Virus record (IMG/VR): IMGVR_UViG_3300030329_004128
Span: 2,796 to 40,908 of that record
From: a virus
Reading direction: 5' to 3' (one strand)
DNA: 38,113 nucleotides
Shown: one piece after another, positions 2,181-22,725 of the stretch
Position numbering within the stretch: the first letter of the stretch is position 1
How the letters are laid out: every line of letters starts with the position of its first letter
Translations under genes and position numbers: made by a program
Notes under the pieces: generated by a model
Told to the model about the DNA's origin: nothing
The model's input: only the letters and a program-made list of their open reading frames with translations
Database searches by the model: none

Positions 2181-5100
2181 CTAGTAATCCTCTAAATCGC
2201 CTACTTCTTTTAAAATATCTTTTATTATTTGTTCGGCCTCAGGATATATAGGAACTGGAAATTTATCAACCATCTTCTTATATTGTTCGTTTAAACCATA
2301 TATCATAGATAATATAAAATCAAATCCCATCATAGGAAGATAACCTAAATGCCATTTTCTAATATAATGAGTTACCTGCCTCTGAATATCTTCATCTTCT
2401 ATAGGCTCATCTGACATAAAAGCACCTCTAGCTAGCATAGCTGGAAATAAGAATATCCAACTTAATAAATCAGAACCAAAGTTTCTAATCTGACCTCCGA
2501 AACCCATCTTTCCATATACAAAATTTGTTAAGAATGGAATTTTAAATGGTCCTCTAACAAACTGGTCCCATAAAGCAGTAGCCAAACCTTGACTCCAGAA
2601 CCAAACTCTAAATGCTTGAAGTTCTGGATGAGTAGCTCTCCTAGCTCTTCCCTTAGTCCTACTTATTCTAGGGTCGAATAAATGACCTAATAATTTTACA
2701 ACAGCTTTCATAGAGAAATTCTGATTTTCTACATCTTCTACATCCTTTAATGATTCGTAAGCCCAGCGAAATCTTCTAGAGTCTTTCCCCCATTTTTGTT
2801 GAGACCAGTATTTAAACTTACCCATAAGATTTCCAAAACCATTCCAATTATATCTTCCAACATCTTGAGTAGATAAACCAAAATTAACAAAATAATTATA
2901 TTCACTTCCTATAGTAATAACCTTTTGTATATCTTCTTCAGCAGTATATTCCCACCAGTGAACATGATTAGGGAGAGCTCCATGTAACCAAGCTCTATTA
3001 ACGCCAATAACAAAACTTATACTTCTAAGAGCAGCTTCAGTATCGCTCATAGTTAAACCAAATTGAAACTTAGTTATTTGTCCATATAATTGGCCTACTG
3101 TCAATGCTAAATCAGAAATAGGACCGCCAACATTCTTTCTAAATTTACTAATAGGGACATCTTTTAATGCAGTTTTAAATACATATTCTTTATTAATTGC
3201 ATATTGAATAAGCTTATTAATGGCAGCTTCTTTTTTCTCTCTTTTAATTCTCTTACGTCTAAAATTAACTCTATCTTCTTCTAGCAATACTAACTTCTCT
3301 ACATTGTCTATAAAAATACTAGATTGCTCTAAAAGAATAGTTACTCTTTCAACGAAATTATCATAAGCATCAAGCTCAGATTTTTTCTTGTTACCTCTTA
3401 CAGTCCTTTTAAAATCAGCCCAAATACTTTTCTTAGTAGCTTCATGAAATAACATCATTTCACCAAGTATTCTGTCGGCTATATCTTGCTCTAATTGTAT
3501 TCCTATTATACCATTAACCATAGCCCTACTAAAAAAGTCTGAAAACTCTGTTATACCAGACCTCTGTATTATAGATTTAATAGCTTCACCTACAGTAATA
3601 TTTCTACCTGGTATCTTAGTAGTACTATTATAATCCTGTAAAGCTTCTTGGAATACATCCTTTCCAAAGTCGTATATATTCTCCATCATAGCAGTCATAT
3701 TAGTTAAGGGACTACCTGCTCCAGATAAATAAACACCAGTGAGCCATCCAGCAAATCTTCTCATATTTTCTTGATGTTCTTTGGCACTTAATGTATATAA
3801 AAAATCAGGAGTAATCGAATTTATAAATCCTGCCTGACCCTCTACAGTCATTCCCATAAATCCTTCAGTTGTAGGGTCTCCAAAAGGAACCTTAAATAGA
3901 TTTATCATAGTTCTTATTACAGCTTCAGATTCAGCAATATCTAAATTATGTGCTAAAGTAGAAGACAAATGGTTTCTTTCTATTGCTGACATTATATGCT
4001 TTAAATAATCATAATAAACACCAACATCATTTCTTCCACTTCTAATATCAAAAGCTCCTGATATTCTTTTAAAGTATTTATTATCTTGAGAGAAAGGAAT
4101 TAAAGAATTAGACTGATAGTCTTTATGATACTTGTCAAAATTATTTCTTATTTCTGATGCATTAGATAACTTATCTTCATGTATTTCCTTTTCTCTAATA
4201 AGCTTCCTTTTAGCAGCGGCAGTTCCTGTATGTTTATCAATTTTATCCTGAAGTGTAGTTATTACATACTCCATATCTTGAATGTACATATCTACCAACA
4301 TCTTATATACATTGGTATCGTAAATAATAGGCCAGTGCCTAGATTTCTTCTCAACTTTTGCACCGTTAGCTATAACGAGTTCATCGCTAATATACATTCC
4401 AAAAGTATCTTTTAATAATTTTATCTTCCTTCTTGATTTATCATCTATAGCTGAAAATATTTTCTTAGCTTGATTACTATTAGGATGAAAGAATAATAAT
4501 TTAATCTGGTCTTCTGTTAAATTCTTAAACTGCTCAGATAACGTACCTATAAGCGTATCTACAGATTCTTGAAACTGCTCAGCCATATATTCAAACACTA
4601 CATTATCTACATTTCTAGCTTGTTCTGCTAAATGCATGAATCTTTTAAAGTCTTTTTTATTTAAAACAACATTCCATTTTCCGTCTTGATATTTAGATAA
4701 AGGGACAGGAGATGAAAAGCCTTTCATTATATCACCCTCTGGATAATCTGCTGGCAATCCTTTCTTCTTCTTCTCTTCATATTCAGCAATAGCTTCAGGT
4801 GTAGGAGGCCATCTTTTAGCATATCCTTCTTCGTTTAACTGCCTTCCCCAATCTTCATGTATCATAAATTGTTGAGTGTCAGGGTCTAAATACATCCACC
4901 CCATCATATACATATGAAACAATCTTTGCATATCTCTATCAGAAGCTCTCCCCTGCCTGACTGCTGTAAAGCTATTGAGATTTTCTAAAATATCATTCAT
5001 TGCCATTTCAGGTATAACTAACTTATCTTCTTTTTTCTTACCTTTATTATATTTTCTAACCCAAGCTTTCAGCTCATCAACATTATCCATAAACATATTT

Positions 5101-5714
5101 ATTCTAGAAGAAACAAATCTAGAGTAATCTCTAACATTTTTAGATAAATCATAAAATGCACCTGTAGGCTCTTCCCATTTCAATGAAGAAGGAGTCTTTA
5201 TAGAAGACCATATGCCTCCAAAATTAGCGTATGCTGCTCTATCAGGATTAACAGCAGTAACAACTCTTAAAGCTTGTGCTAAAAATAATTTTAAAGAACT
5301 CATAGGAAAAAGAGTTAAATCCAATCCTTCTCTAATCTCTAATCCAGTGTCAGGGTCTACTTTTCCAGTCTTCTTTCCAACTTTTAATCCGTGAGGTAAG
5401 TGTGTTAATATAAACTCGTACATCATATCTTCTGATATACTAGTCCCTTGTATGATAGCATATATCTTATGAGCCAAAAGAATTCTTTCAGATTTTTTAC
5501 CATATTTTCTTTCGATAATTTCCATTATCTTTTTGTCTAATAGCTTTTCATCATCAACCGTCTCTCCAATCTTCCACTCTTCTTGAAGGTCCATGCTTAA
5601 TGATTCATTTATATCTAAAAAATTAGACATAGCTTTATAAGCTTCATCAGAAACTCTATCATTATTTTCTAAAGCTAATATATTATCACGTGTTATCTTG
5701 CATTTACCACTCAT
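2181..5714 (-). CDS. Large protein (1177 aa), likely virion-associated partner of the giant protein
   Basis: The start overlaps the stop of the giant gene by one base (TAATG at 5712-5716), with AAGGG about ten bases upstream. An in-frame ATG at 5723 would sit only one base from that ribosome binding site, so 5714 is preferred. The product is largely helical and charged. It includes a KGKKKEDK basic patch (about 220-235), a glycine/serine-containing hydrophobic stretch around LSGAGSPLTNM near residue 665, and a C-terminal region with several hydrophobic helices (for example LLSWIFLFPAMLARG near 1080). No catalytic motif is recognised. Position and coupling suggest co-expression with the giant protein and perhaps co-packaging and ejection with it. 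A polyvalent-protein relationship is possible but not shown. Confidence 0.75.
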   Translation of the reverse strand: MSGKCKITRDNILALENNDRVSDEAYKAMSNFLDINESLSMDLQEEWKIGETVDDEKLLDKKIMEIIERKYGKKSERILLAHKIYAIIQGTSISEDMMYEFILTHLPHGLKVGKKTGKVDPDTGLEIREGLDLTLFPMSSLKLFLAQALRVVTAVNPDRAAYANFGGIWSSIKTPSSLKWEEPTGAFYDLSKNVRDYSRFVSSRINMFMDNVDELKAWVRKYNKGKKKEDKLVIPEMAMNDILENLNSFTAVRQGRASDRDMQRLFHMYMMGWMYLDPDTQQFMIHEDWGRQLNEEGYAKRWPPTPEAIAEYEEKKKKGLPADYPEGDIMKGFSSPVPLSKYQDGKWNVVLNKKDFKRFMHLAEQARNVDNVVFEYMAEQFQESVDTLIGTLSEQFKNLTEDQIKLLFFHPNSNQAKKIFSAIDDKSRRKIKLLKDTFGMYISDELVIANGAKVEKKSRHWPIIYDTNVYKMLVDMYIQDMEYVITTLQDKIDKHTGTAAAKRKLIREKEIHEDKLSNASEIRNNFDKYHKDYQSNSLIPFSQDNKYFKRISGAFDIRSGRNDVGVYYDYLKHIMSAIERNHLSSTLAHNLDIAESEAVIRTMINLFKVPFGDPTTEGFMGMTVEGQAGFINSITPDFLYTLSAKEHQENMRRFAGWLTGVYLSGAGSPLTNMTAMMENIYDFGKDVFQEALQDYNSTTKIPGRNITVGEAIKSIIQRSGITEFSDFFSRAMVNGIIGIQLEQDIADRILGEMMLFHEATKKSIWADFKRTVRGNKKKSELDAYDNFVERVTILLEQSSIFIDNVEKLVLLEEDRVNFRRKRIKREKKEAAINKLIQYAINKEYVFKTALKDVPISKFRKNVGGPISDLALTVGQLYGQITKFQFGLTMSDTEAALRSISFVIGVNRAWLHGALPNHVHWWEYTAEEDIQKVITIGSEYNYFVNFGLSTQDVGRYNWNGFGNLMGKFKYWSQQKWGKDSRRFRWAYESLKDVEDVENQNFSMKAVVKLLGHLFDPRISRTKGRARRATHPELQAFRVWFWSQGLATALWDQFVRGPFKIPFLTNFVYGKMGFGGQIRNFGSDLLSWIFLFPAMLARGAFMSDEPIEDEDIQRQVTHYIRKWHLGYLPMMGFDFILSMIYGLNEQYKKMVDKFPVPIYPEAEQIIKDILKEVGDLEDY

Positions 5715-8700
5715 TAATTGCATGCCCTTCTTTTTATTTCATTCCAAGCAGTAAGATTACCAAGCATACCAGCATTCTTACCTTTTAAATACTTATCTAT
5801 ATTTTTATTATACATTTCATAAAACACATTCAATAAATCAGCATCTAATAAACTGCTTTGTCTATAATCTGAACTAGCATGTGCAATATGTTTAGGGTTC
5901 TTAACATTTATATCTACAACTTGCTGACCTTGAATATTTAAAACTGAAAAGGTATCTATTTTATGCTGTCCCTGAAATCCTCTTAAAAATAACAATGTTG
6001 ATAGAGCCCTAGCTAAAGGAGTTGTTAATGATAAAGGCCTTCCTTTAGCCATTCCAGAATTAGTATAAAACTGCTCAAAAGTTATCACCATGCTTCTAAA
6101 CATATCGTCTAAATCAAAGCTATTATCATCTAGCTGTTTTCCTTGTTCATTTCTTAACTTTAATATACCGTACCATTCTTTAATCAATGACTCAGTATAA
6201 TTTTGAGCTTCCTCTAAAGCATTATCAAAATAGGCATCTCTTTGTTCTTCAGGAACTTTAGCTTTATCCATAATTTTTTTAAGATATCTAGATAAGAATC
6301 TTTGTGAATTTAGCTCTTCCATAGATTCTACAAAAGCTCCTTGATGTACGTTATCATGAATATCAAAAATACTATTTTTAAATCCTTCTATTTCATGTCT
6401 TGCAGCTATCTGGTCTTGTTTCATCTGAGGACTAATAGCTATGCTTTCTATCGGAAGTAATCTACTATTAGCTATGTTAATCTTAATATTGTGCATTTTT
6501 ATAAAAGCTGATAATGGGTCTCCATCTTTATCAATAACATTCATAATACCATTTATTCTATTTGAGCCATCTTTACCTACAAACGATAAGTATCCATTAC
6601 TTTGAATCATCGTATCATCTAAAGAGTAATTCTTTCCAAACTCAAATCCATTTCTAATTCTTCCAGGATTAATATGCTGTTGAAAAATTGGGAATACAAA
6701 ACTATCAAAGAATAATTTATCATTATGATTGCTTAAATCCAAATTTCTCCATTCTCCGTCTTTATTTTTAATTTCAAATAATTGAGAAGCTATTTTCTTT
6801 TGTCCGCTAGGCTGACCACCAACGCCTCTTAATAAAAATCCCCACTCTCCTAATAAATTAAATTCGGCATTATCTACAGATGCTTGTATCCATATTCTCA
6901 AAAAGTCTTCAACAGTACCTTCCCATCCCATACTACCATCATAATATACATTCCAACGTAATTTATCACTAGGCTTTTTAGGTCTTATGACAGCATCAAT
7001 TGCTCCAATTTCAAATGAATCATAAACATTATGCATTATACCATAAGATAAAGCTATATTAGCTATCATTCCTACAGCCTGAGCTCCAACAGTTGAATTA
7101 GCTATTTGATTAAATCTATCATTCTTATCAAGCAAATTAAGCTTAGAGATTCTTTTTTTAATAAATTTTTGAAGGCTAATAGGAGATATATCTTTATCTT
7201 TAGCTATATCAAGCCATACTTGCAATCTATCTCCGCCTAAATATTCTATGTGGACTTCATCACCATCAGCATCCATCTCTAAATAAGCCTTAGCATCTTG
7301 AGGATTAACTTCGATAATCTTAGAGTCTGAATGTACAGATTTAACTCTAACTATCATAGAGCTACCTCTTCCAGTAACAGGGAATCTCTCCATTTTTACA
7401 TAAACATCATTATCTTCTAACCATGCATTTATATCAGATTGAAGTCTGCTACTGCTTCTATCTCCTTTAGGACCAGGATATATACTTCTTATATGTTCAT
7501 CAAAAGGAAGATTAACTTCCCCAATATTATCTTCAAATTCTACTGACCTTTTAAGACCTGTAATATCAGGTCTATATTTATAACGGCCTCCTGTTTGCCC
7601 ATCTAATTGCAATACAGGCCCCATTCCCTTGCTTTGAAGTATATTGTTTAAAAATGGAAAACTTTGAGGGTATAATCCAGAGCCGTTCTTTACATGCTCT
7701 AAAATCATAGGTCCGTAACCGTCTTCATATTCGGACTTGTTAATACTCTTAAGGAGGTCGGCTATCTTTTCACCTGGATGAGATATTATTTTCCCACCTT
7801 CAGATACCTTTACAACAGCTGCATTTAATATTCGCTCTAATCTATTATGCAATTGCCTTAAATAGCCTTCATTAAAGACATCTATTAACTCTTCATTGTT
7901 TTGATAATTATATATCTGAACTCCAGACTTAACCGCTTTATTAGGCTTATCATCATATTTAATCATACCAACAGACGTACCATTTAATTTCAACTTAACA
8001 CCTCCAGGAACAGACTCTCCTCTAGAATGAAAAAGCTCTCTTACCTTAGCTTCATCTTCAGTTAATAACACATCTACCTGTGCTCCGTTAGATACATCTC
8101 TAATATTTCCATTTTTATCTACTCTCCATACGGTTTCCCCTGTATCTTTATCCTTTATCTCCATACCAGGTCTCACGGCAGTTTGAAGATGCTTTACCAT
8201 TACAATATCATCTCCTTCTTTCTGATACATAACTGTCTTAGCAAATTTCATACCTTTTTTTAGTCCAAAGCTCTTATTGTATTCGTTGAAAATATCTCTA
8301 CTGGTCATAGACATTCCATCACCTATATATGTATTTCCAAAAACAGGCATATTCTGAACTAAATCAGTTCTGACCCCGTCATATTCAACATAAAATTTGC
8401 TAGGGTCAAAAAGTGTAACCTCAAAATCCCGCATTGTTTCACTATAATTGACTGGCGTAAATGGTATTTTCAGTCTCTTTAAAACATTTGCAGCTCCATA
8501 CTTCATGAATTGAGGCCACACTTTCTGATAAGCATTATATACAGAAACTGCAGCTGCCATATCTAAATAATCTACAGTACCTTCTCTAATAACTTCTCCT
8601 GTGTCACCAGCTACTTCCATCATATTATCAACAGATTCTAATATAGCTTCTAATTGTTCTTGAGGAATATTCTTATACTGACTCGCCCAGAATTTCCTAA

Positions 8701-11700
8701 ACCAATTTCTATCTTTATTAATCCTGAATAATCTTCCATAGCTAGGAGCATCAGGGTCATAAAAAAATTGTCTTTCTATTTTTACTATAAATAGCTTGTC
8801 ACTATCTCCTCTTGAAGCCATAATTGTATAACGCTCAGCATCGTTATCTTCGCTTAACTCTTCACCAGGAGCGGAGAGACCATTATGCATTAAACTATAA
8901 TTAAGTTCCTCCAACTCTTGACTATTTAAAAAACCAAACTTTTTATTCCAATCTTCTGTAGTCTGATTAGTTAGCTTGTCTGTTTTTATATCTACCTCAA
9001 TAATATCCTTACCAGAAAGATGAAGAATCTGATTAAAGTTCTCTTCTTTGTTAGATAGCTCGAATAGATTAATCTTTTCAAATTGAGGATTGCTCTTACC
9101 TTCTCGATAGCTGAAAGCTTCCTTGTGAGATGTGAAATAATAAACCCCACCTTCATAATTCTTCACTTCCAATTCTAGATTCTGTCTATTATCAGAGCTA
9201 GGAGCAGGCACCTTTTTATCTCGTATAATTCTAAAGTTATTGTGATTAACTCTTATATTTGAAAATGACTGAACGTAAAATCTAACTAATGCAGTTTCTT
9301 CTCTGTCTGTAAAAGCTCTATTTAAACCAATAATTTTTTTAGCATGTGCCATCCAGACTGGCATTGTCTCATTCATAGAGGCAACCATTAAATCATTAAA
9401 TTGTGCTTGTGTCAATCCTTTGAATGGTCCTAATCTTTTAAAATCTTGATAGGTATAATACTCATCACTCTCTCCCTGCATAGATTGACGCTGAATTCCT
9501 TCTCTTGAGTCTTCAAATTCATCATATATAATATTCTCCATACTAGCTTCATTTAACCAATGATACCTATCTCCAAATTCTGCTTCTGAATATGCTACTC
9601 CATTTCTATCGGCTATAGCAATATTTGATTTTCTATTTTTAAATCTATCATATAACCAATCCTCATAAAAGCCTATATATTCAGCATAATGCTTTTCCAT
9701 TATATCATACATCTGATTCATAAATATATCTATATCAACTCTTCCATGTCTACCTACACCATCACCTTTAGATGCTTTATTTAATCTCTCAAATAGGTTA
9801 TCAAAAAAATTGAAAAAATATCTCTGTCTATCAGTCTTTCTCTCATGGCTTCCTGGAGCCAAAAATAGCCCTTCTTCGAAGATATCTTTAAACTGGTCAA
9901 ATGTTTCAGGCTGTCCTTTTTCAAGCTCGTTAGAAGACCTAATTCTTGAAAGTTTTAATGGATTTAAATTAGGGTCCGTATCTTCGGTTTTAACTATCAT
10001 ATATAATCCAGTGTTAGACCAAGAAGGATATACTTTTTTAACTTTAAATTTGTACTTCTTCTCCATGCTACGTAAAGCTTTAAGCCATGGCCCATCAAAT
10101 CCTTTATCTATAGAAAAATTAAAATTGCCCTTTAATGAATTAAGCAATATATAATCGTTTAGAGAATCTTTTCTAGGATAATCCTTATTAGTAGCTGGGA
10201 CAACTTCATTGCCACCCTCCTCCATTAAAAGAGTTTGAAGTTCCATATTAGCAATAAGACCTGAAGCAGAATTTAGTTCGCGACCAAAATTATTAGTCAT
10301 AAGTCTTGAAAGTTGCTCTTTATCTATATCTTGTAATTTATCTATATATTTCTCCCACACTTCTGACCAAACTTCTTTTAAAGGATTAAACCCAGTAAGC
10401 TCTTGCAGCACTTTAAAATCAGGAAAAATAAATAACTCTTTTACCTGCTGAACATTAGGCATCTTAACTCTTACAACAAGAACTTCAGGCTTTATATCTA
10501 TTTTCTCAGAACGCCTAAGCATATTGACAGTCTCTCCATCTGCTGTAGTAAAATTAAACGTATCAGATAAAACAGATATTACTTCAGTTATCTCGGTCCT
10601 ATCTCCAATAGTAGCAATACTTTCCATTATACTGCTTCTAATAACATTAATAGCAGAATCTGGAATTACTTCATCTACTAGCTTCAACCATGCAGGATTA
10701 TGTTGAAACTGTTTCACCCAAGGTGCTAATACTTGCTTAATTTCACCTGAATCAGTAACAACTTTCTGCCCTACTTCAGCTTTCATGTTAGTAATTTCTT
10801 CTTGGAACATTTGAATGACAGGATTCTCCTCCATCATACCGCCAAGACTTTCTATTGCCTGGTTCATTAAAGATGCCAAATCTCTAGCTACTCCAGGCGT
10901 TCTAACGGCATCAACAACTTGTTTTTCTAACTGAGATATATATCCACCTATAAACTGGTCGCTTTTCCATGTGCTTGAAAATTTATAATCATAAGGATAT
11001 TGTAATATAGCATCTATCCATGACATAGAATGAGCTCTTAAATAATTTGCACTTTGAGGCCATTGAGTATAATCAAAAAACATAGCTGTTTCATCTGTAA
11101 TTTTATTTTCACCTACAAGTTCTTGAATATTTTCAGCAAGGATTTGTAAGATATCAAGATGCACGCCTGAATATCTAAAATTCTCTGGTACAATTTCCCT
11201 TCCACGAACCCCTCTATTAAATATATCAAGAGCATTACGTAGTAAGACTGAAGCGTGAGCTCCTTGAGGTCTTGTATTTTGAATATACTTATAACCTGCA
11301 TAATGCTCATAATTATTTCTATGTCTTTGTCTAGCTGCAGAAGAGTTGTATTGGGTCTTGTAAAAAATATCCCTAACAATCTGCCATTTATTCTCTATCT
11401 TACTATTATATATATTGGCAGCATCATCATTTCTCTGCAAGAGCATAATTGCTGAACCAGTATTCATATATAAATTACCATCAGGTCCAAGCATGGCATC
11501 GCCATGAACAATCGAATGCATAATCTGTATTTGATGGAAGTTTTTCTGCCATTCCAATGCTTTCTTTACTTCGTCATATTTATAGGAACCTTGACCAGCT
11601 AGAAGACGACCTTCTAATAAATATGATAATTGTGCATCAAGTTCTGTCTGTCTTTCCAATTCTAAGCTACGGTCCCTTTCCCATTGATTGAAAGCATTTT

Positions 11701-14700
11701 CTAAATCTTGTATTCGAACTGTAAGTTCTCTATTTGGATTCTCTACATCTTCAACAAGCATCATTTCAAACATCTGGTGAGCTTGATTTACACTCATTAC
11801 TTCTGTTTCAGTGTGTCCGATAGCAATAGGGTCTCTCCATGTAACTACAATATCATCAGTCTCTTCGTAGATTTGATAATTCTTCATTTCTTCAGTTCTA
11901 TTTATAACTTCATCTATTACAAACCTATTAAGATAAATCCAATTTTCTAAATACACTCTAGAATAAATCTGATATTCACTTCTTAATAAATCTTGATAGT
12001 AATCTTCAAAAACATCAAGCCTTAATATTTCATCTGTTTCAAATTTTGCATGTTCAAGCTTCTTTTTCCATGGCTTATATTTAGATGAAGCATAAGAAGC
12101 CCTATACTCTGCATCATTTCTCATCCCAATTATATTATTGCTAAATAAAAATTGCTGAGCCCCTACCTTTTTCAATCTCCAGTCATGAAACTCAAAATGA
12201 CTAGCTTCTTCATCATCAGGGTCATGATGTTTAATCATGATTTCAATATTCTTTAATTCTCCATTTGGCTTCATTAATGTATCAATAAGATTATTCTTCT
12301 TGTGGAAATTCTTTAAGTTACCTGAAATAATGCCCTTCATATGAATACGCTTAGTGGGAAATAACCCTATATCATATTCTTCTCTTAAGCCACCATGAGT
12401 TTCCCAGTACATATCATGAATTTGGTAGTTAATTATTGATTTATGAAAATCATCAAGCTCTTCTTTAGTATGCTTTGTACCTTCCTTCAATCCTTTTATG
12501 CTATTAATCATACGAGGAGCAATTTTATTTTGGATTTGCTCAAGAGATACAATGAATCCCTCCATAACAATCCGAGATAATTCAGCTATTTCTAAATCTA
12601 TACCAGCACGTTTAGAACTATTATAAAGAGCATTTATCTTTTTAATATAAAAATTATTTTCATTAACTGAACCTCTATGTTTTTCTGGGTATCTCTTATA
12701 ATCTATATGTGCATTTAAATCATTATTTACTATATTCTTAAATGTTGATATTAAGATTCTTTCATCTAAGCTCTCTTTATATACAGATGCCGAATCCTGT
12801 ATATACTCTAAGAATTCATACAAATCTTTTCTTTGACTGTCATCTTTTAAAACAAATGCATTAAATACACTTTTTTGAATTGCACCTTGCATCATATCTT
12901 CATAATGAGGTTTAATTTTATTATTAATTACCATCTCTTCAATACGAGCATTTCTAACTTCAAAATCTTTCTGTTCGTTAGCAATATTCTCTGGTGATAT
13001 AGACACGTCTTGCATTATTGCATCCACTACCCTATGTAAATATGGGAGATAAAAAAGTGGTTCTTTATAAAACTTTTCTCTTTCTTTATCTTGGTCATAT
13101 TCTTCGCGAGTCATAAACTGCACATTGCCCTTAAGCCATTCAGACGCATTTTCATCTATCCTATCAAATATCCATTTACGCAAAGGTGCTACTTCTGGAT
13201 AGTCAAAGAAATCACCCTCATATAACATTTGTTCGGCTTCAGAATATTGCACCCCTCTATCAACATCATGAACGTAGCCCATATTTGAATAATCTTTTAA
13301 CGACAATCCGCTAAGAGCTTCATAAATTTTATCCATTACAATATCAGGAGTAGAGTTAGAAATAATTTCAATGGGCTTTGTCAATATTTCAACATCTACA
13401 CCATCTATATTTACCGTAGTAGGAATTGTAACAGTAATTAAATTATCTCTTGGTTTCCCTGTGGCTATCCATGGAGCTTTATATTTCATATTATCTCTTA
13501 CTGCAGCTTCTCCTTTATTCCTAGCCTTATCATGAATCTTCATACCGCTTTTTAATTCAGTTATAATCCTAGGAATATCATCAAAATTTATTTCACCAGC
13601 ACCTAACGCCTCCTTATATTCATCAAGGGCCAATGAAAATTCATCCCATACTTTTCTAGCCTCTGGAAAGAAATCACTTTGATATTCATAAAGAAGAACA
13701 TCTCCTGGTGAACCTAAAGTCCCATTTGGAATAGTCAATACTCCATACCAGCCAAACCCATTTCCAACCATGCCATCTTTTCCAACTGTAAGTCCATGAC
13801 CTCTTCGATAAATATTACCATTGTGAAGCAATACTCTATGCACTGAATTCTGTGCTAGCCCTGCTTTTGATAAATTAGTATCTGAATCCTCAAGCTGAGT
13901 TACGGTACTTTGCAACTTAGAATCGACACCTTCAATATTAATTAAGTTTTTATAAGAAAGAGCTGTCTGTGATAAAGTAGTCGCTGAAGAATATAAAGGA
14001 TATTTATTATCAGCCCAATGCTGAAATGAAGAAATAGCTTCTGAAGGGAGAAGAGATTTAATTTTTGGAAATTTCTTTTTAAAATCTTTAACCCACTCTG
14101 AAACCATTTTAGACATATCGCTAGGCATTCTGTACTTTTGCATACTTGCAACATCTTGAGTTCTAATTCTCTTTGTAGTTGAAGAACTTAATTTAATTAC
14201 GATATAATCTTTATCTTTAGATTGTAGAGTGCCTTCAATAGAGCGTCCATCCGTAGTCTCTACTACAACCATTTGCTGTCCTTGTTTCTGCATTCCTCCA
14301 AGATTAGGAAATTGGTCAATTCCAATTCTTCTATCAGGACTATCCTTCTCAAGCCTTGAAAGATGTTTATCTACAAAACTATATCTAAAAAATACTTGGC
14401 TCTCTATAATGTCTGTGACAATTCTAAGTTCGTTTAATATCCCTTCATCTAGCTCGAATAAATCTTTTTTCTTTTCTGCTAATCCAATAGTACCAACGCT
14501 ATCTACTATCCCAATTAATTTCAAATAATTACGCTGAAGGTCCTGAATTATCTCGCCATGAAACTCAAGTTTAGAAGGGTCTTGCTTTGCTATATATTTT
14601 TTTCCAGAATATCTCTTAGGGCTAACATGAAACTTTTTAGCAATACGCTCTGTATATTTCCTAACAAGAGCTTCGTATTCTTTTTTAATGCCTACTGAAA

Positions 14701-17700
14701 GTTTCTCAAGCACCTTATCTCTTTGTTTTTTATTTAACTTAGCCCAAGACTTACCTTTAGGTAAATACTTCCTTATAACAGAAGATGAAAAATGTAATTG
14801 ACCAGTAGCATTATCTACTTCAATGCTTAATATTTTTCCAATATAATCTGTAATCTCATTATCCATTCCTTCAACTATATCAGATATTATATCATGTGAG
14901 ATTATATCACTATTTGATAACCCATTAATTATTTCTGATTCTACGTCCCTACCATGAACATCTTCTGCTGAAGCTATATCCTCAGCCACTTCCAATATGC
15001 CAATAGAAGACTCATAATCTTCTAGAGTGATTGTATAAATATTTTCATTTTCAGCTATTATATCTGCTAAATCTACAAATGTTGTTGTAAGTACATCTAA
15101 TTTAGAAGCAAGAATATTAGTTCTAGCATTCTTTCTTCCTAAGATAAAATCTACAATTGCATTCCATATAGATTGAACTTTACCTATAAAGGTTTCAGAT
15201 TTTTTCTGCTTATCTTCATAGCTCATAGTAGCAAAGTCTTCTAGGATAAAAGCAAACATTTCTTCTTTAAAATCATCATCAGGGTCTTTACCTATAGCAA
15301 TAGCTCGTTCTCCAGTAGCTTCATTGTCCATCACAGATATACTTCCAGAATCAAACTCTGGGTAATCAACTGAAACTCTTTGATAATAATCTTCATAAAA
15401 TTCTAAATCATTAGCTACACTATCCCATAAGCTATTCCACAGCTCTGGATTAGTCTTTCTTATAGAAGCTAAAAATGGATGTGAGAATTCATGAAATGGT
15501 AGCTTGCCAGCATCAGGAGAATCAGCTATAACAACTATAGTATTAGTATTGGAGTCAAACCATCCACCAACTTTAATAATATTACCTTTACTATCTCTAG
15601 CTGGTCCAGGAGTTGTAATGCCTTGTGACTTTTTAAATAATGCATTAGCTCCTTCATTCCAAGTATCATAAATCTTATAGCTAAACTCTACATCGCTGCC
15701 TTCTATTTTAAATTTATTTACTAGAATCTCAAGCTTTTCTTTTAAATCTTCTTTAATTTCATCAAGGCTAAGTTCTTCATCAGAAATTTCTTTAGAGTCA
15801 TCAGTGAATGAGGTAACTCTTCTCTCTTTAACATCATCGGTATCTTCTCTAGGAGCAACCTCATCAGTAGGCTTAGCAGCCTCTCTTTCAATTCTTTGTT
15901 GTTCAATATCAAACTTTCGTTGCAATCCTTTTAAATCTTTTTTTCTCTCATCTAAACGCTTCTGCGTCTTTTGAACACGTGCTCTTCTTTCTGGAGAAAG
16001 CAGCATTAAAGGGACTCTACCTTTATCTTCTTTTATAAGGTCTTCAAGATACTTAATATCTTCTTCTGTATCTGTAATTTGCTTATCTAAAACTTCTATA
16101 GGAGATAATTCAGTGACTACGTCCTCTTTCTTTTCTTTAATAACAGACAATCTTTTACTAGCTGTATCTAATGCAACTTGAGCCATAATAGCTGGTGCTG
16201 ACTTTTTATCTTTAGCTTCGCTAATAATCTTTTCTTGTTTTGCAATATAAGTCTCTAGCTCAGTTTCATCCATAGCATCAATAGATTTTTCTTCTACTTC
16301 AGGACCAGGTATCTTATCGATATCTATCTTTGTATCATCTTTAGTATCAGGAGGAACAATCTTATCATCTGGAGTTATTTTAGTATCGTCTGGAGTTATT
16401 TTAGTATCATCTGGGACTACCTGAGTATCGTCTGGAGCCACTTGAGTATCATCAGGGTCTTGAGGTGGTGAAAATATTTCATCCATTCTATTAAGATGTT
16501 CTTCGCTAGTCTGCTCTCCATCTGGAGTAAAATACATATCAAAAGTATCTCTAAATTCTTGCTCTCCAATAGCTTGGAAATTCCAAAGATTATTATCAAC
16601 TAACTCTTCTACAATATTAAGAATAGTGTCGCCACCATCTGTATCCATATCAGGAAAGTATGTATCCATTACATCGTTCTGAACTTTTCTAGTTACACCG
16701 ACAATCCTTCTTCCCATAAACTTTTTAATAGCTATAGTTGAATGATTGACGAGTTCAGGAACGTCATAAATTCCAGACTCTACTATCTGCCTATTAACTT
16801 CTTCTTGATACTTAACAATAACAGGGTCGTCCTTTAAAACGCTTTCTCCACCAAACTCTTTAAAATTCTCAGTTATTTCTGATATTCTCTCATTAATCTG
16901 CAACACTCTATTAGCACCTGTTTCTTTTTTAGAATGTACTGACTCTCTAGTTTCTAATCTTCCTTTTGAATCATAAATATTTACTTCATACTTGCCAGTA
17001 TCTTTATTTAATTCTAATTTAGCCTCTCCATCTACAACATTCTTATGTTGCCAAGCGTCCTCTTTCTTCCAATTATTATGATATTCCTTAGCTATTATCT
17101 TAGCTGCATCATAAGCCTCTGCCCAAGTATCAAACTCAACTTGAACAGGATTTCCATCTTCATCCGTAATCGAAGTATTCGTTATAGCACTACGGTCAAC
17201 ATTCATATCGCTACGTATATCTTTTATATCTTTATTGTCTATAACTACTATTTCACCACCAACATTAATTCTAGTAACTTCATCTCCTTTCTTTTTCTTT
17301 ACTATAGCCCCTCTATATTCAGTTCCATCTTCAAGTAAAACTACATCTTCGCTTTCACTATGAGAAACTTCCATATAAAATTTATTATTTTCATTTCGTG
17401 TTTGAGGAGCATAAAAATACGTACCCTCATAAGTATCACCTGCTTGCGTATATTGTTTATTGATGTTTCTATCTGTACTTCTCCTGACTTGACCATACAA
17501 GTCTGTTATTCCAAAAGGAGTACCAGCCATAAATCCACCAGCAGCAGATTCTGTAGCCTCTTTATAATCCCATTCTTCAGAAAGCTTTGCTTTAAATTTC
17601 CAACCAGGGTCTCCACCAATAAAGCCTGGACCATATACTGTTGTACCTACTTCCATTGTATATTGAATTTCTTCTTCTAAAGCTTCTGTAAGATTTACCC

Positions 17701-19333
17701 CTATCGTTCTATACATAACTTCTGGAGATGAATACAAACCACGAGTAAAAGCGTTAGAACCTTTGGGAACGCTCTTACTTACTTCAGAGAGCCTATCACT
17801 TACTCTCGAAAATATGCCAAGTCCCATTTTATCTGATATGCTAGATTTCAAACTTTTAAAAGCCGCATCTCCCATACCCATTAAAAGCAAATCTCCACCT
17901 GACTCTACAAACCCAGAAAACGTAGCATAAGCCATAGCAGAAGCTTCAGCTACATCTACAGCTTGCATTGGAGGTAATCCTTCTTGTATTAAGTAATCTT
18001 TATTTACAGTACCATCAGCATTTGGAACTAAAGTAAAATAATTATATAATTGAAAAGCTCTATACTCATCATAATCCATTATCCTTTCGTGTAAAGGAAG
18101 ATTACCATCGTATATACCAGGACCTTCACTGCCATCTTCTTTCTTATGAGAAATGCTAGATATGGCTGCCATTTGACCTTCTGGGTCATTCTTAGAATCA
18201 TAATTAAACATGTTAATTTTTTGAGGGTCACTAAAAAATTCTTTCTTTAATTCTTCAGGAGCTTCCTGATATAATTTGTATCTATGTCTTATTAGTTCTT
18301 CAGCATGGTCCCAAGTAACTTCCTTATCTTGAACAAGCTCGTCATAAGCCATCCCTAAATAACTACCACCCTCCATAATATGCCCAGCCATTGTAGCTCC
18401 AACAAGATAGCCTCCTAGCATAACAACACCTTTACCTCTAGGGTCTGGAACCATAGCTGCAAGAGGAGTAGCAACAGCAGCTCCCAACTTACCAGAAGCA
18501 TAAGATGTAGTTAAAGATGGTAATGCTTGCACAAATAAATTTATTAAATGATGACTCTCAAAATTTCTAAGCTTTTGGTCATGCAACCATTCTGCAGTAG
18601 CTTGCAATCTAGGATTTTCCTTAAACGCTTTTTCAGTTGCCTTGTTTCCTTCTTCTAATAAATTAACTGCATAACTTTGAAGTTGTTTTTCATTATGTTT
18701 TATTCTTTGTAATTGCGACTCAACTTCTTCATCAGTCGCTTCAGGATTATCAGCAATATACTGACTTCTAAATGATTGTTCGAAAATATAATCTTTTAAT
18801 ACGGGAGATATACCCTGTCTATCTAAATTCTCTGCTTCGTCTTTAAATCGAAATGCATTTGCAACGTATGCAGGCATATTATAAAGATATTGTTGTGATT
18901 GAAAAACATAATTTAACTGCATTATATCAGCAAATTCAGGCTCTCCAGTCCATTCTTCTTCTTTTAGAACTGGATATTGTTCAACTATTTGATTGTAAAA
19001 TTCTTGGTCAGGCATAGCATTAACAGCTGCTTCAGACCAGCCATTTTGAAATGCTACTTGTTTTCCATATTCAATTATTTTTTCTCTAGTAATTAAACCA
19101 GATTCTTCTGTCTCAGGTTCAGCATCAGGGTCTGGAATAACCCTATTATTATCTATCTCATTTTGAAGCTCTTGCCTTCTAGCCGTATCTTCTTCTTCTA
19201 CTTGCTGGTCTAGAATTCTTTGCTCTTCTAAATCTTTAGCCTTTTGTAATAATGCTTCTTTTTCCTGTTGTTCTCGTAACTTCTTAGCCTCCTCATCTTC
19301 GATGAGTTGACCATTTTCATAATAAAATCCCAT
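5714..19333 (-). CDS. Giant multidomain virion protein (4539 aa) with candidate two-barrel RNA polymerase and metallopeptidase motifs
   Basis: One uninterrupted frame fills about 13.6 kb. ATG 19333 follows AAAGGGCG. In order: a charged coiled-coil start (about 15-60); a hydrophobic glycine/alanine region (about 275-335); an EALEEEIQ...AAGGFMAG segment (about 549-605); a PDDTxxx heptad linker (960-993); a charged coiled coil; HEFSH at 1281-1285 with E1357/E1358 as candidate third zinc ligand; and YEYQSD at 1882-1887, like the EIQSD motif of polyvalent phage proteins. Near the C-terminus come D3672-G3673 with K3699 and K3714 (candidate first barrel), R3983-x-P3985 and D4021-A-D-G-D4025 (second barrel). 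RxP plus DxDGD typifies beta-prime, QDE-1, YonO and crAss-like virion polymerases. A virion-packaged polymerase ejected with the DNA is inferred from gene order. Catalysis is unproven. Confidence 0.8.
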   Translation of the reverse strand: MGFYYENGQLIEDEEAKKLREQQEKEALLQKAKDLEEQRILDQQVEEEDTARRQELQNEIDNNRVIPDPDAEPETEESGLITREKIIEYGKQVAFQNGWSEAAVNAMPDQEFYNQIVEQYPVLKEEEWTGEPEFADIMQLNYVFQSQQYLYNMPAYVANAFRFKDEAENLDRQGISPVLKDYIFEQSFRSQYIADNPEATDEEVESQLQRIKHNEKQLQSYAVNLLEEGNKATEKAFKENPRLQATAEWLHDQKLRNFESHHLINLFVQALPSLTTSYASGKLGAAVATPLAAMVPDPRGKGVVMLGGYLVGATMAGHIMEGGSYLGMAYDELVQDKEVTWDHAEELIRHRYKLYQEAPEELKKEFFSDPQKINMFNYDSKNDPEGQMAAISSISHKKEDGSEGPGIYDGNLPLHERIMDYDEYRAFQLYNYFTLVPNADGTVNKDYLIQEGLPPMQAVDVAEASAMAYATFSGFVESGGDLLLMGMGDAAFKSLKSSISDKMGLGIFSRVSDRLSEVSKSVPKGSNAFTRGLYSSPEVMYRTIGVNLTEALEEEIQYTMEVGTTVYGPGFIGGDPGWKFKAKLSEEWDYKEATESAAGGFMAGTPFGITDLYGQVRRSTDRNINKQYTQAGDTYEGTYFYAPQTRNENNKFYMEVSHSESEDVVLLEDGTEYRGAIVKKKKGDEVTRINVGGEIVVIDNKDIKDIRSDMNVDRSAITNTSITDEDGNPVQVEFDTWAEAYDAAKIIAKEYHNNWKKEDAWQHKNVVDGEAKLELNKDTGKYEVNIYDSKGRLETRESVHSKKETGANRVLQINERISEITENFKEFGGESVLKDDPVIVKYQEEVNRQIVESGIYDVPELVNHSTIAIKKFMGRRIVGVTRKVQNDVMDTYFPDMDTDGGDTILNIVEELVDNNLWNFQAIGEQEFRDTFDMYFTPDGEQTSEEHLNRMDEIFSPPQDPDDTQVAPDDTQVVPDDTKITPDDTKITPDDKIVPPDTKDDTKIDIDKIPGPEVEEKSIDAMDETELETYIAKQEKIISEAKDKKSAPAIMAQVALDTASKRLSVIKEKKEDVVTELSPIEVLDKQITDTEEDIKYLEDLIKEDKGRVPLMLLSPERRARVQKTQKRLDERKKDLKGLQRKFDIEQQRIEREAAKPTDEVAPREDTDDVKERRVTSFTDDSKEISDEELSLDEIKEDLKEKLEILVNKFKIEGSDVEFSYKIYDTWNEGANALFKKSQGITTPGPARDSKGNIIKVGGWFDSNTNTIVVIADSPDAGKLPFHEFSHPFLASIRKTNPELWNSLWDSVANDLEFYEDYYQRVSVDYPEFDSGSISVMDNEATGERAIAIGKDPDDDFKEEMFAFILEDFATMSYEDKQKKSETFIGKVQSIWNAIVDFILGRKNARTNILASKLDVLTTTFVDLADIIAENENIYTITLEDYESSIGILEVAEDIASAEDVHGRDVESEIINGLSNSDIISHDIISDIVEGMDNEITDYIGKILSIEVDNATGQLHFSSSVIRKYLPKGKSWAKLNKKQRDKVLEKLSVGIKKEYEALVRKYTERIAKKFHVSPKRYSGKKYIAKQDPSKLEFHGEIIQDLQRNYLKLIGIVDSVGTIGLAEKKKDLFELDEGILNELRIVTDIIESQVFFRYSFVDKHLSRLEKDSPDRRIGIDQFPNLGGMQKQGQQMVVVETTDGRSIEGTLQSKDKDYIVIKLSSSTTKRIRTQDVASMQKYRMPSDMSKMVSEWVKDFKKKFPKIKSLLPSEAISSFQHWADNKYPLYSSATTLSQTALSYKNLINIEGVDSKLQSTVTQLEDSDTNLSKAGLAQNSVHRVLLHNGNIYRRGHGLTVGKDGMVGNGFGWYGVLTIPNGTLGSPGDVLLYEYQSDFFPEARKVWDEFSLALDEYKEALGAGEINFDDIPRIITELKSGMKIHDKARNKGEAAVRDNMKYKAPWIATGKPRDNLITVTIPTTVNIDGVDVEILTKPIEIISNSTPDIVMDKIYEALSGLSLKDYSNMGYVHDVDRGVQYSEAEQMLYEGDFFDYPEVAPLRKWIFDRIDENASEWLKGNVQFMTREEYDQDKEREKFYKEPLFYLPYLHRVVDAIMQDVSISPENIANEQKDFEVRNARIEEMVINNKIKPHYEDMMQGAIQKSVFNAFVLKDDSQRKDLYEFLEYIQDSASVYKESLDERILISTFKNIVNNDLNAHIDYKRYPEKHRGSVNENNFYIKKINALYNSSKRAGIDLEIAELSRIVMEGFIVSLEQIQNKIAPRMINSIKGLKEGTKHTKEELDDFHKSIINYQIHDMYWETHGGLREEYDIGLFPTKRIHMKGIISGNLKNFHKKNNLIDTLMKPNGELKNIEIMIKHHDPDDEEASHFEFHDWRLKKVGAQQFLFSNNIIGMRNDAEYRASYASSKYKPWKKKLEHAKFETDEILRLDVFEDYYQDLLRSEYQIYSRVYLENWIYLNRFVIDEVINRTEEMKNYQIYEETDDIVVTWRDPIAIGHTETEVMSVNQAHQMFEMMLVEDVENPNRELTVRIQDLENAFNQWERDRSLELERQTELDAQLSYLLEGRLLAGQGSYKYDEVKKALEWQKNFHQIQIMHSIVHGDAMLGPDGNLYMNTGSAIMLLQRNDDAANIYNSKIENKWQIVRDIFYKTQYNSSAARQRHRNNYEHYAGYKYIQNTRPQGAHASVLLRNALDIFNRGVRGREIVPENFRYSGVHLDILQILAENIQELVGENKITDETAMFFDYTQWPQSANYLRAHSMSWIDAILQYPYDYKFSSTWKSDQFIGGYISQLEKQVVDAVRTPGVARDLASLMNQAIESLGGMMEENPVIQMFQEEITNMKAEVGQKVVTDSGEIKQVLAPWVKQFQHNPAWLKLVDEVIPDSAINVIRSSIMESIATIGDRTEITEVISVLSDTFNFTTADGETVNMLRRSEKIDIKPEVLVVRVKMPNVQQVKELFIFPDFKVLQELTGFNPLKEVWSEVWEKYIDKLQDIDKEQLSRLMTNNFGRELNSASGLIANMELQTLLMEEGGNEVVPATNKDYPRKDSLNDYILLNSLKGNFNFSIDKGFDGPWLKALRSMEKKYKFKVKKVYPSWSNTGLYMIVKTEDTDPNLNPLKLSRIRSSNELEKGQPETFDQFKDIFEEGLFLAPGSHERKTDRQRYFFNFFDNLFERLNKASKGDGVGRHGRVDIDIFMNQMYDIMEKHYAEYIGFYEDWLYDRFKNRKSNIAIADRNGVAYSEAEFGDRYHWLNEASMENIIYDEFEDSREGIQRQSMQGESDEYYTYQDFKRLGPFKGLTQAQFNDLMVASMNETMPVWMAHAKKIIGLNRAFTDREETALVRFYVQSFSNIRVNHNNFRIIRDKKVPAPSSDNRQNLELEVKNYEGGVYYFTSHKEAFSYREGKSNPQFEKINLFELSNKEENFNQILHLSGKDIIEVDIKTDKLTNQTTEDWNKKFGFLNSQELEELNYSLMHNGLSAPGEELSEDNDAERYTIMASRGDSDKLFIVKIERQFFYDPDAPSYGRLFRINKDRNWFRKFWASQYKNIPQEQLEAILESVDNMMEVAGDTGEVIREGTVDYLDMAAAVSVYNAYQKVWPQFMKYGAANVLKRLKIPFTPVNYSETMRDFEVTLFDPSKFYVEYDGVRTDLVQNMPVFGNTYIGDGMSMTSRDIFNEYNKSFGLKKGMKFAKTVMYQKEGDDIVMVKHLQTAVRPGMEIKDKDTGETVWRVDKNGNIRDVSNGAQVDVLLTEDEAKVRELFHSRGESVPGGVKLKLNGTSVGMIKYDDKPNKAVKSGVQIYNYQNNEELIDVFNEGYLRQLHNRLERILNAAVVKVSEGGKIISHPGEKIADLLKSINKSEYEDGYGPMILEHVKNGSGLYPQSFPFLNNILQSKGMGPVLQLDGQTGGRYKYRPDITGLKRSVEFEDNIGEVNLPFDEHIRSIYPGPKGDRSSSRLQSDINAWLEDNDVYVKMERFPVTGRGSSMIVRVKSVHSDSKIIEVNPQDAKAYLEMDADGDEVHIEYLGGDRLQVWLDIAKDKDISPISLQKFIKKRISKLNLLDKNDRFNQIANSTVGAQAVGMIANIALSYGIMHNVYDSFEIGAIDAVIRPKKPSDKLRWNVYYDGSMGWEGTVEDFLRIWIQASVDNAEFNLLGEWGFLLRGVGGQPSGQKKIASQLFEIKNKDGEWRNLDLSNHNDKLFFDSFVFPIFQQHINPGRIRNGFEFGKNYSLDDTMIQSNGYLSFVGKDGSNRINGIMNVIDKDGDPLSAFIKMHNIKINIANSRLLPIESIAISPQMKQDQIAARHEIEGFKNSIFDIHDNVHQGAFVESMEELNSQRFLSRYLKKIMDKAKVPEEQRDAYFDNALEEAQNYTESLIKEWYGILKLRNEQGKQLDDNSFDLDDMFRSMVITFEQFYTNSGMAKGRPLSLTTPLARALSTLLFLRGFQGQHKIDTFSVLNIQGQQVVDINVKNPKHIAHASSDYRQSSLLDADLLNVFYEMYNKNIDKYLKGKNAGMLGNLTAWNEIKRRACN
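16355..16456 (-). repeat. 21-bp tandem repeat encoding PDDTxxx heptads
   Basis: Inside the giant gene, residues 960-993 read as four complete heptads (PDDTQVA, PDDTQVV, PDDTKIT, PDDTKIT) and a shortened fifth (PDDKIV). A degenerate P/D/T/K-rich tail follows. The DNA units are near-identical 21-mers. This is an acidic, proline-rich flexible linker separating the N-terminal hydrophobic region from the coiled-coil and metallopeptidase part. Confidence 0.85.
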
Positions 19334-19352: not shown

Positions 19353-21131
19353 TTACTTATTCATACCACCTATTATATTAAGTATGTCATCATCCTTATT
19401 CATCTTCGGAACACGAAGGTCTAATGTATCAAGAGCTGCATTTACCCCTTGAACATTTATATTGCCTGGAGCTTGTGCTCCAATGTCAAAAGTGAATTGA
19501 TTTGCCATATCATAATATTTATTAGATGCGTCCATTTCATTTCCTATCCCAACAATAAGACCGCTATGAACTTGAGCCATTCTTACAAATACAGAACGAA
19601 ACATATTTTTAGGATTAGAGTCCCATTCCTCGGTATTAACAGAAGGATATCCTACACCTGCAAAAGGATTCGTATAGCCTGTAGCCCATGACTGCAAATC
19701 AATACCCAGGTCTTCTAAAGATTTTAAATCTATTCCAAATTCCTTATCTATCCTATCGCTACTAGTATTCGCATCAGGCATTAATTCTTCATATACAACT
19801 CTTGTCAGTGCTACGCCTATATGGTCTCTTTTTATAGGGTCTTTTTCAGCCGCATATTTCTCAACTAAATTTCCAATCCTTTTAAAATTAACCTTACTTT
19901 CAGGCAAAGCATCTGCTCTTTTACCTATAACTGAGTTGCCTTCAGCATCAACTGCAAGAAACTCATCACCACCTTTACTGAAAAGATTGAATCCCTTTAA
20001 AGCCCTATTAGACTCTACAATTTTATGACTCTGTACTGAACTTGGAATTTTAGATTCATCAGCTGTAAAAGTTCTTACAAATGCGTCTCCACCTTGAGGA
20101 ATACCCATTGCCTCTTGCAATTCTGTATTTCCTTTTTCTCCCCAATCTCCCATTAACTTATCAGCATTAGAAATTACATTTTGTCCCATAGTCATTTTAG
20201 TAGAAATATCTTCCCAAGATGTAAAGCCTTTAGCTCGCATCCATTCTTCTTCTGTAGCAGCTCTTAAAGATTTTTTAAGTGCAAGTTCTTTCTTTTGAAT
20301 TTCAGATGGACCTTCATCACCAGGACCTCTACCATGTATAAAACTAGGGTCCATAAGATACTCTTTAGTCCAAGGTTTATCCGCAAAGAAGGTCTTGTCT
20401 ATAATATCTTCTTCACCAACAAAACCTCCTAATCTTGGAGCGTAAGGATTGTTTGGGTCATTCATAAAATCAGGCATTCCATCACCATCTTTATCCTCAA
20501 ACATACCAGACTCTATATCTTGAACTAGCTTCTGAACATCAGCTATATCATAAATGCCTTCTTTCATCATCTCAGTCCCCAGATATCTTCTGAATTGTTC
20601 AGCCTTATGAAGGTCTTCTATCATGCCATCTAAGTTATTTAATAAAATATTCTGCACATCGTATTTATTCTTATTAGCAACAATTGCATTGGAGGTACTA
20701 TCAAATGTATCTAAGCTAAACTTTAAATTGCTACCTATATTTTCTTTATGCTGTTCTAGCATATTCCATCCATCTTCAGTCATATCTTCGCCTTTTAGCT
20801 TAGCATAATTAGCTAAAGTAACTCCATAACCAAACCCCTCTTTTACTCTATTCTCTATATCAGTTTCTAAGCTCTTATTTAAAGCTTCGAAACTATCTAT
20901 ATTCTCTTTTATAGTCTGCTGATTTTCTCTAACTAAAAGCTCTCTTTCATACAATTTCTCTTTATGCTCTCTTGTTGCTTCGGCCTGTTCAAATTGAAGT
21001 TTGCTATTAGCCATACTATTACCAATTGAAGCTATACCTTCTATAAAATCTAATACATCTGAGATTTCAGTTTCCAACTTATTATTAGCATATGGACCTA
21101 TTAAAGCATATCTATTTAGCTTTTCAAACAT
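19353..21131 (-). CDS. Helical protein (592 aa), candidate internal or ejected virion protein
   Basis: The start ATG at 21131 lies a few bases after the upstream stop, with AGAGGT as ribosome binding site inside the previous gene. The N-terminal third is highly charged and coiled-coil-like (about 45-190, with runs such as EQAEATREHKEKLYERE). At about residue 213 there is a DKDGDGMPDFMNDP segment, which resembles calcium-binding loops of thrombospondin type 3 or dockerin kind. The C-terminal half is mixed and has no recognised domain. Its place directly before the giant gene and after the tail genes matches the internal core or ejection proteins of podoviruses. That role is inferred from context only. 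Confidence 0.7.
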   Translation of the reverse strand: MFEKLNRYALIGPYANNKLETEISDVLDFIEGIASIGNSMANSKLQFEQAEATREHKEKLYERELLVRENQQTIKENIDSFEALNKSLETDIENRVKEGFGYGVTLANYAKLKGEDMTEDGWNMLEQHKENIGSNLKFSLDTFDSTSNAIVANKNKYDVQNILLNNLDGMIEDLHKAEQFRRYLGTEMMKEGIYDIADVQKLVQDIESGMFEDKDGDGMPDFMNDPNNPYAPRLGGFVGEEDIIDKTFFADKPWTKEYLMDPSFIHGRGPGDEGPSEIQKKELALKKSLRAATEEEWMRAKGFTSWEDISTKMTMGQNVISNADKLMGDWGEKGNTELQEAMGIPQGGDAFVRTFTADESKIPSSVQSHKIVESNRALKGFNLFSKGGDEFLAVDAEGNSVIGKRADALPESKVNFKRIGNLVEKYAAEKDPIKRDHIGVALTRVVYEELMPDANTSSDRIDKEFGIDLKSLEDLGIDLQSWATGYTNPFAGVGYPSVNTEEWDSNPKNMFRSVFVRMAQVHSGLIVGIGNEMDASNKYYDMANQFTFDIGAQAPGNINVQGVNAALDTLDLRVPKMNKDDDILNIIGGMNK

Positions 21132-22366: not shown

Positions 22367-22725
22367 AACAAAACCTCCATTTTGTATTCATTATCTTCGG
22401 AGTCTTTTACCTTAGCTCCTATTAATTTATTAAAAGCTTTAGGATTACGACTAGTGGCAAATTGTATTCTATCGCATCCATTATTTTTAGCTAATTCTTT
22501 TAAATTATTCCATACTTTAAGCACTTCTTTATGCTTCCCTGGAATAGCATATGCTGTATATATCCATAATACATTATCATACTTACGATATTCTATCCAG
22601 CCTAAATCATCCCATTCTGAAATTTCACAATTTATAGGCTTTAAAAAAAGGTCATCTTCAGACTTTTTAATATATTCAGACATATATTTCTTTTGAAGCC
22701 TTGTAATGTTTCTAACCTTCTCCAT
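22363..22725 (-). CDS. GNAT-like small protein (120 aa)
   Basis: The start overlaps the upstream stop by one base (TAATG at 22723-22727). The 120-residue product has the order beta strands (LGWIEYRKYDNVLWIYTAYA), a loop PGKHKEV, a long helix (VLKVWNNLKELAKNNGC), a strand (RIQFATS) and a tail (AFNKLIGAKV). That layout resembles a compact GNAT acyltransferase core. A clear acetyl-CoA-binding Q/RxxGxG/A loop is not obvious, so it may not be an active enzyme. T7-like podoviruses also carry a small GNAT-like protein among their internal core protein genes (gp13), which fits this position. The alternative is an unrelated alpha/beta protein. Confidence 0.6.
   Translation of the reverse strand: MEKVRNITRLQKKYMSEYIKKSEDDLFLKPINCEISEWDDLGWIEYRKYDNVLWIYTAYAIPGKHKEVLKVWNNLKELAKNNGCDRIQFATSRNPKAFNKLIGAKVKDSEDNEYKMEVLL

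Follow-up and report, generated by a model that had tools for sequence, protein, structure and literature searches.

A giant protein of an uncultivated SU10-capsid phage carries a predicted single-chain two-barrel RNA polymerase at its C terminus

The C-terminal ~1,200 residues of a giant phage protein very probably form a single-chain two-barrel DNA-dependent RNA polymerase, which would be made late, packaged as cargo, ejected, and used to transcribe early genes. The protein is encoded in a DNA stretch of 38,113 nucleotides (the window), which covers positions 2796 to 40908 of a linear 40,908-bp IMG/VR virus record. The fold, the catalytic residues, and the selection on the polymerase region were established by computation. 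The open reading frame (ORF) of 4,539 aa is intact, without an internal stop, and the polymerase region is its best-conserved stretch. All residues named in the original prediction (D3672-G3673, K3699, K3714, R3983-F-P3985, and D4021-A-D-G-D4025) were found at their predicted positions, with R3983 lying 38 residues upstream of D4021. The main parts of the protein are as follows.

5714 to 19333, minus strand: giant ORF, with an N-terminal region carrying an HExxH peptidase motif, a long, poorly conserved middle, and a predicted C-terminal two-barrel RNA polymerase
5744 to 9322, minus strand: predicted RNA polymerase region, residues 3338 to 4530, defined by the AlphaFold2 model
15260 to 15493, minus strand: gluzincin-like peptidase motif, H1281-E-x-x-H1285...E1358

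For the N-terminal region, fusion to a metallopeptidase motif had been proposed. The motif itself stood: HEFSH occupies residues 1281 to 1285, and H1281, E1282, H1285, and E1358 were invariant in 20 of 20 sequences. A peptidase fold did not gain the same backing, as the model of the region (pLDDT 77) had no PDB match below an E value of 0.2. We suggest that this domain probably aids passage through the envelope or processing of the chain itself. Farther along the protein, residues 1681 to 1730 (14144 to 14293, minus strand) gave weak, subthreshold matches to DUF2642 (E 0.005) and LSM (E 0.17) and are possibly a small Sm-like barrel.

Relatives of the giant protein were not reached by direct searching. 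Comparison of the window protein with Pfam, PHROGs, PDB sequences, INPHARED phages (by tblastn), and prokaryote genomes yielded nothing useful, and single-sequence pattern scans of viral contigs and genomes recovered no relatives of the giant protein. The successful route led from relatives of the capsid protein through tblastn against whole records to a profile scan. The SU10-type capsid protein of the window had 276 relatives in viral contigs, of which the best 80 were kept. When the C-terminal 1,340 aa of the giant protein were compared by tblastn with 24 longer whole records of capsid relatives, 6 of the 24 matched (E 4e-53 to 2e-100, 28 to 33% identity), all within giant ORFs of 3,002 to 4,199 aa. 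A profile of the C-terminal third then located 35 loci in viral contigs, the first six records among them; the same profile found 0 loci in 84,980 prokaryote genomes. The alignment used for conservation comprised 29 sequences with 20 to 31% identity to the window protein over 1,193 positions. Separately, a scan with the DNA pattern for DADGDE returned 44 unrelated contigs, none of which matched the giant protein. Among the contigs fetched only by this pattern (L083 to L126), RxP-(25-60)-DxDGD occurred five times; these occurrences could be chance or other polymerases.

The giant gene is part of the late virion module and points the same way as the capsid and tail genes, and a primase-helicase is encoded on the opposite strand. 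Its neighborhood includes the following ORFs.

2181 to 5723, minus strand: 1,180-aa ORF overlapping the end of the giant ORF; a conserved partner in relatives, with 27 to 32% identity to the neighboring ORF in G001, G016, and G017
19353 to 21131, minus strand: 592-aa ORF immediately upstream of the giant gene, a candidate internal or cargo protein by position, with a weak match in G016
21134 to 22366, minus strand: 410-aa ORF, a candidate internal or cargo protein by position only, with no family match
22725 to 24047, minus strand: 440-aa ORF, a candidate internal protein with weak tape-measure profile similarity (phrog_1293, E 0.008)
37468 to 38112, minus strand: SU10-type major capsid protein, partial at the contig end (PF17236, E 1.9e-16; phrog_1328)

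The 1,180-aa ORF weakly matched LPD14, a domain of large polyvalent proteins, below the cut-off (E 0.0055). Among the candidate internal virion proteins, a 120-aa ORF (22363 to 22725, minus strand) has the look of a GNAT-type acetyltransferase by eye and shows 36% identity in G017, with no Pfam match. At the convergent junction of the early and late modules, a 119-aa ORF (1570 to 1929, plus strand) is unusually conserved, with 70 to 73% identity in three relatives, and resembles a small nuclease by eye.

From the location of the gene in the late virion module, together with virion proteomics of phage phi14:2 and reviews on injected polymerases, we infer packaging, ejection, and early transcription. 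Annotation of phi14:2 lists the polymerase ORF and the genes next to it as structural on the basis of virion MS/MS, and injected polymerases are described in reviews as drivers of early genes (PMC10136315). By analogy, the giant protein would be made late along with the virion proteins, packaged as cargo, and released from the virion together with the DNA or ahead of it; the ejected polymerase would then transcribe early genes before the host polymerase does so, or independently of it. A k-mer search for a promoter motif common to the early genes found only ribosome-binding sites. In two other records, an identical motif, TTGTTNNAGAAATCGTAAATTA, precedes an early ORF by ~30 bases (L211, 6508 to 6529, minus strand, where the ORF is Sak4-like; L212, 17246 to 17267, plus strand) and is a candidate early promoter.

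The two-barrel RNA polymerase might instead be left out of the virion and made in the infected cell for late or middle genes, like gp64 of phage P23-45. Nonvirion two-barrel polymerases do exist, as P23-45 gp64 and YonO demonstrate (PMC10770324, PMC5467207). This option is nevertheless unlikely, since the gene is surrounded by late structural genes and shares its strand with the capsid gene, opposite to the primase-helicase; the enzyme is part of a very long polypeptide that also bears a peptidase motif, as is seen in virion cargo proteins; and its best fold match is itself a virion polymerase.

The fold of the predicted polymerase was examined by modeling residues 3338 to 4530 with AlphaFold2 from the 29-sequence alignment, which gave a mean pLDDT of 81.1 and a pTM of 0.82. 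In a Foldseek search against the PDB, the best match was 6VR4, the virion RNA polymerase of the crAss-like phage phi14:2 (E 4.8e-16, probability 1.00). It was followed by QDE-1 (E 5.5e-10), with an aligned identity of ~10%, and then by P74-26 gp62 (6.9e-7), P23-45 gp64 (~1e-6), and cellular beta-prime subunits (~1e-5). Two-barrel RNA polymerases accounted for all 50 of the PDB matches listed. Against BFVD, the top matches were unnamed proteins (E ~1e-80), followed by crAss-like RNA polymerases and proteins of phi14:2 and P23-45 (A7XX94). In line with the original prediction, Foldseek identified the model as a two-barrel RNA polymerase, and the single-chain two-barrel reading is supported by this fold match together with the invariant catalytic candidates. 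The relevant features of the two barrels are listed below.

7943 to 8425, minus strand: beta-like first barrel (DPBB-B), residues ~3637 to 3797, placed by invariant residues and model strands; holds D3672-G3673, K3699, and K3714-H3715
8315 to 8320, minus strand: D3672-G3673 (YIGDG motif)
8237 to 8239, minus strand: K3699, candidate catalytic lysine 1
8192 to 8194, minus strand: K3714, candidate catalytic lysine 2 (KH motif)
7238 to 7600, minus strand: beta-prime-like second barrel (DPBB-A), residues ~3912 to 4032, placed by conservation, model, and fold match
7379 to 7387, minus strand: R3983-F-P3985 (RxP motif)
7259 to 7273, minus strand: D4021-A-D4023-G-D4025, predicted metal-binding loop
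6854 to 7087, minus strand: candidate bridge-helix/trigger region, residues 4083 to 4160, assigned from helices conserved past the second barrel (VGMIAN...YG; LRIWIQASVDN)

The model puts K3699 and K3714 on neighboring first-barrel strands (model strands 360 to 369 and 372 to 382). R3983 is at the end of a second-barrel strand, and DADGD forms a loop just ahead of another strand; in the predicted structure, both are placed as expected for a two-barrel fold. In the proposed active site, the first barrel would supply K3699 and K3714, and the second would supply R3983-x-P3985 and the Mg-binding D4021, D4023, and D4025.

Searches of Pfam and PHROGs, hmmsearch against the PDB, and hhalign to crAss polymerases found no significant match to any known polymerase; one family member weakly matched the Pfam RdRP family (PF05183, E 0.0079). 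The predicted enzyme would be catalytically active on a DNA template. A two-barrel polymerase acting on another substrate, by RNA-dependent RNA synthesis or by DNA synthesis in the manner of PolD, is a quite improbable alternative: it draws on the second rank of QDE-1 among the folds, on the RdRP match just mentioned, and on the presence of two barrels in PolD as well (PMC10770324). However, the phi14:2 enzyme, which heads the matches, is DNA dependent, PolD is absent from the 50 PDB matches listed, and a double-stranded DNA phage offers no evident RNA template.

Conservation of the catalytic candidates was assessed in the family. The pattern RxP...DxDxD was present in 35 of 35 related loci, as DxDGD in 30 and as DHDHD in 5. 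In the 29-sequence alignment, only 28 of the 1,193 positions were invariant, and these included all nine of the named residues (D3672, G3673, K3699, K3714, R3983, P3985, D4021, D4023, and D4025), an outcome with a chance of ~5e-16 if columns are drawn at random. E4019, H3715, and D3760-E3761-x-K3763 were also invariant. Past the second barrel, an LR...QA..DN stretch was nearly invariant, with L4145, R4146, Q4150, A4151, and D4154 conserved in the post-barrel helices. Homologues without these residues would have spoken against the original prediction; in fact, the homologues kept RxP, DxDxD, DG, and both lysines. The pattern RxP-(25-60 aa)-DxDGD arose in 12 of 2,000 shuffles of the giant protein (0.6%), so its lone occurrence is suggestive at most; judged from the sequences, the above-chance signal is the conservation rather than the motif pattern by itself. 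The barrels had dN/dS values of 0.05 to 0.20, compared with 0.24 to 0.84 upstream, and were lower in five of five pairs of relatives, which shows that the polymerase region is under strong purifying selection.

These data bear on the proposal that the polymerase is degenerate and catalytically inactive, retained only for a structural or ejection role. It would accommodate the replacement of DxDGD by DHDHD in five homologues and the distant giant proteins of G015 and G018, which have no clear RxP. It is very improbable given that the three aspartates, both lysines, DG, and RxP were invariant in the 29 sequences, the DHDHD ones included, and that purifying selection on the barrels is strong. That DADGD is a calcium-binding loop in a beta domain of unrelated type, with the remaining residues matching by coincidence, is a negligible prospect, even though DxDGD is common in calcium loops and the RxP-DxDGD spacing appears at the above rate by chance: it is refuted by the invariance of all nine residues and by the two-barrel fold match, and DADGD departs from the canonical calcium loop in having E4026, not glycine, after the third aspartate at loop position 6 (DADGDE). 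As a separate observation, the loci with the altered metal loop (L184, L185, L187, L188, and L194) read EGDHDHD in place of EGDxDGD and retain RxP and the lysines.

Its predicted fold and catalytic residues make the giant protein a member of the superfamily of two-barrel RNA polymerases. Its best fold match, the phi14:2 enzyme, shares with it an RxP and DxDxD second barrel and a first barrel with DG/DA and two lysines. An AxVDNAKDP sequence in phi14:2 gp77 resembles the post-barrel stretch of the window by eye, both genes lie in the structural module beside other very large ORFs, and phi14:2 is a podovirus. The two differ in the metal motif (DFDID in phi14:2, DxDGD in the window family) and in genome size, with relatives of the window phage on contigs of ~50 to 58 kb and crAss-like genomes of ~90 to 100 kb. 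The capsid protein falls in phrog_1328/SU10_MCP, whereas that of crAss001 falls in phrog_11589, and the best portal profile is phrog_156 rather than the crAss phrog_6547, with one weak shared profile. Comparison by hhalign with a 12-sequence crAss polymerase profile was not significant (probability 0.2%), although the best local alignment placed RxP and DxDxD exactly in register. Since there is no profile link to crAss polymerases and the capsid and portal fall outside Crassvirales, we regard the enzyme as being of the same kind but a family in its own right. Outside the DxDxD region, many two-barrel polymerase families lack significant similarity in sequence (PMC10770324); a missing crAss profile match is therefore normal for the superfamily.

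The idea that the giant gene is a fusion of counterparts of phi14:2 gp078 and gp077 was considered from the ORF lengths (1340-593-420-593-1797-2180-1421 in phi14:2 and 1319-590-440-410-592-4539-1180 in the window). As a proven fusion it was dropped and stays only suggestive, since the profile comparison with crAss polymerases was not significant and the neighbors had no profile similarity to those of phi14:2 or crAss001. In public records, giant crAss-like polymerase ORFs (L200, L206, L207, and similar records) are deposited under the misleading names exonuclease V, DNA helicase, and nuclear pore complex-like protein.

Other known polymerases are more distant in one respect or another. QDE-1, from the eukaryotic RNA-interference polymerases (PF05183), is like the window enzyme in fold rank and in the family member that touches PF05183; it is unlike it in being cellular, without a phage origin, and outside giant virion proteins. 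P23-45 gp64 and P74-26 gp62 are structural matches of the window model. Coliphage N4 gp50 has a T7-type single-subunit fold, not a two-barrel fold, and is not matched by the polymerase model; it shares the role proposed for the window protein. This giant (~3,500 aa) virion polymerase of Schitoviridae is ejected (PMC12633501). YonO of prophage SPbeta is a single-chain two-barrel DNA-dependent polymerase (PMC5467207); unlike the window protein, it is ~100 kDa, prophage encoded, and outside giant virion proteins. The nearest architectural precedent is P23-45 gp96, a giant virion protein of 5,002 aa that contains both a metallopeptidase and a two-barrel polymerase with a DFDGD motif (PMC10770324). 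There, the polymerase is at the N terminus of a tape-measure protein, in contrast to its location at approximately residues 3340 to 4530 of 4539 here, and P23-45 is a long-tailed phage, whereas a relative of the window phage has a P22-like portal. The earlier statement that the protein is larger than known virion polymerases was wrong: at 4,539 aa, it is shorter than gp96, than the cr118_1 polymerase ORF (~4,946 codons), and than crAss-like polymerases, which reach ~6,000 aa (PMC10136315).

The enzyme may extend beyond the 35 loci. Five distant giant proteins of capsid relatives were inspected: RxP followed by DxDxD was present in G003 (DADFD-LDK), G011, and G019 (EGDYDVDK/EGDFDVDK), and DxDGD without a clear RxP was present in G015 and G018. 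Because the profile links between these proteins and the window family are weak, they are regarded as putative polymerases. In G014 and G020, which have no single giant ORF, RxP...DxDxD occurred in ORFs of 1,027 aa (L149, 6169 to 9249) and 1,588 aa (L156, 10701 to 15464), which suggests a split polymerase arrangement. On balance, we favor the view that these enzymes form a separate family of virion-packaged two-barrel RNA polymerases found throughout a large uncultivated podovirus-like group with SU10 capsids, in fused (3,000 to 4,500 aa) and split forms, too diverged for profile libraries, and that they would free early transcription from the host polymerase.

The literature searched, with most subscription journals and preprints outside its scope, contained no earlier description of two-barrel polymerases for this lineage of phages. 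The kind of enzyme is known; what is new, within the tests made, is the family, the phage lineage, and the position of the polymerase at the C terminus. To our knowledge, virion-packaged single-chain two-barrel polymerases have been shown experimentally only in crAss-like and P23-45-type Thermus phages. With the present family, the lineages would number three. Capsid relatives of the new one are present in 276 metagenomic virus contigs, and every sequence library tried was blind to its enzyme. Polymerases with two barrels in a single chain are rare, and they are relevant to the origin of cellular RNA polymerase from simpler two-barrel enzymes. Here, a domain with defined boundaries (~residues 3340 to 4530) and nine predicted catalytic residues is directly testable.
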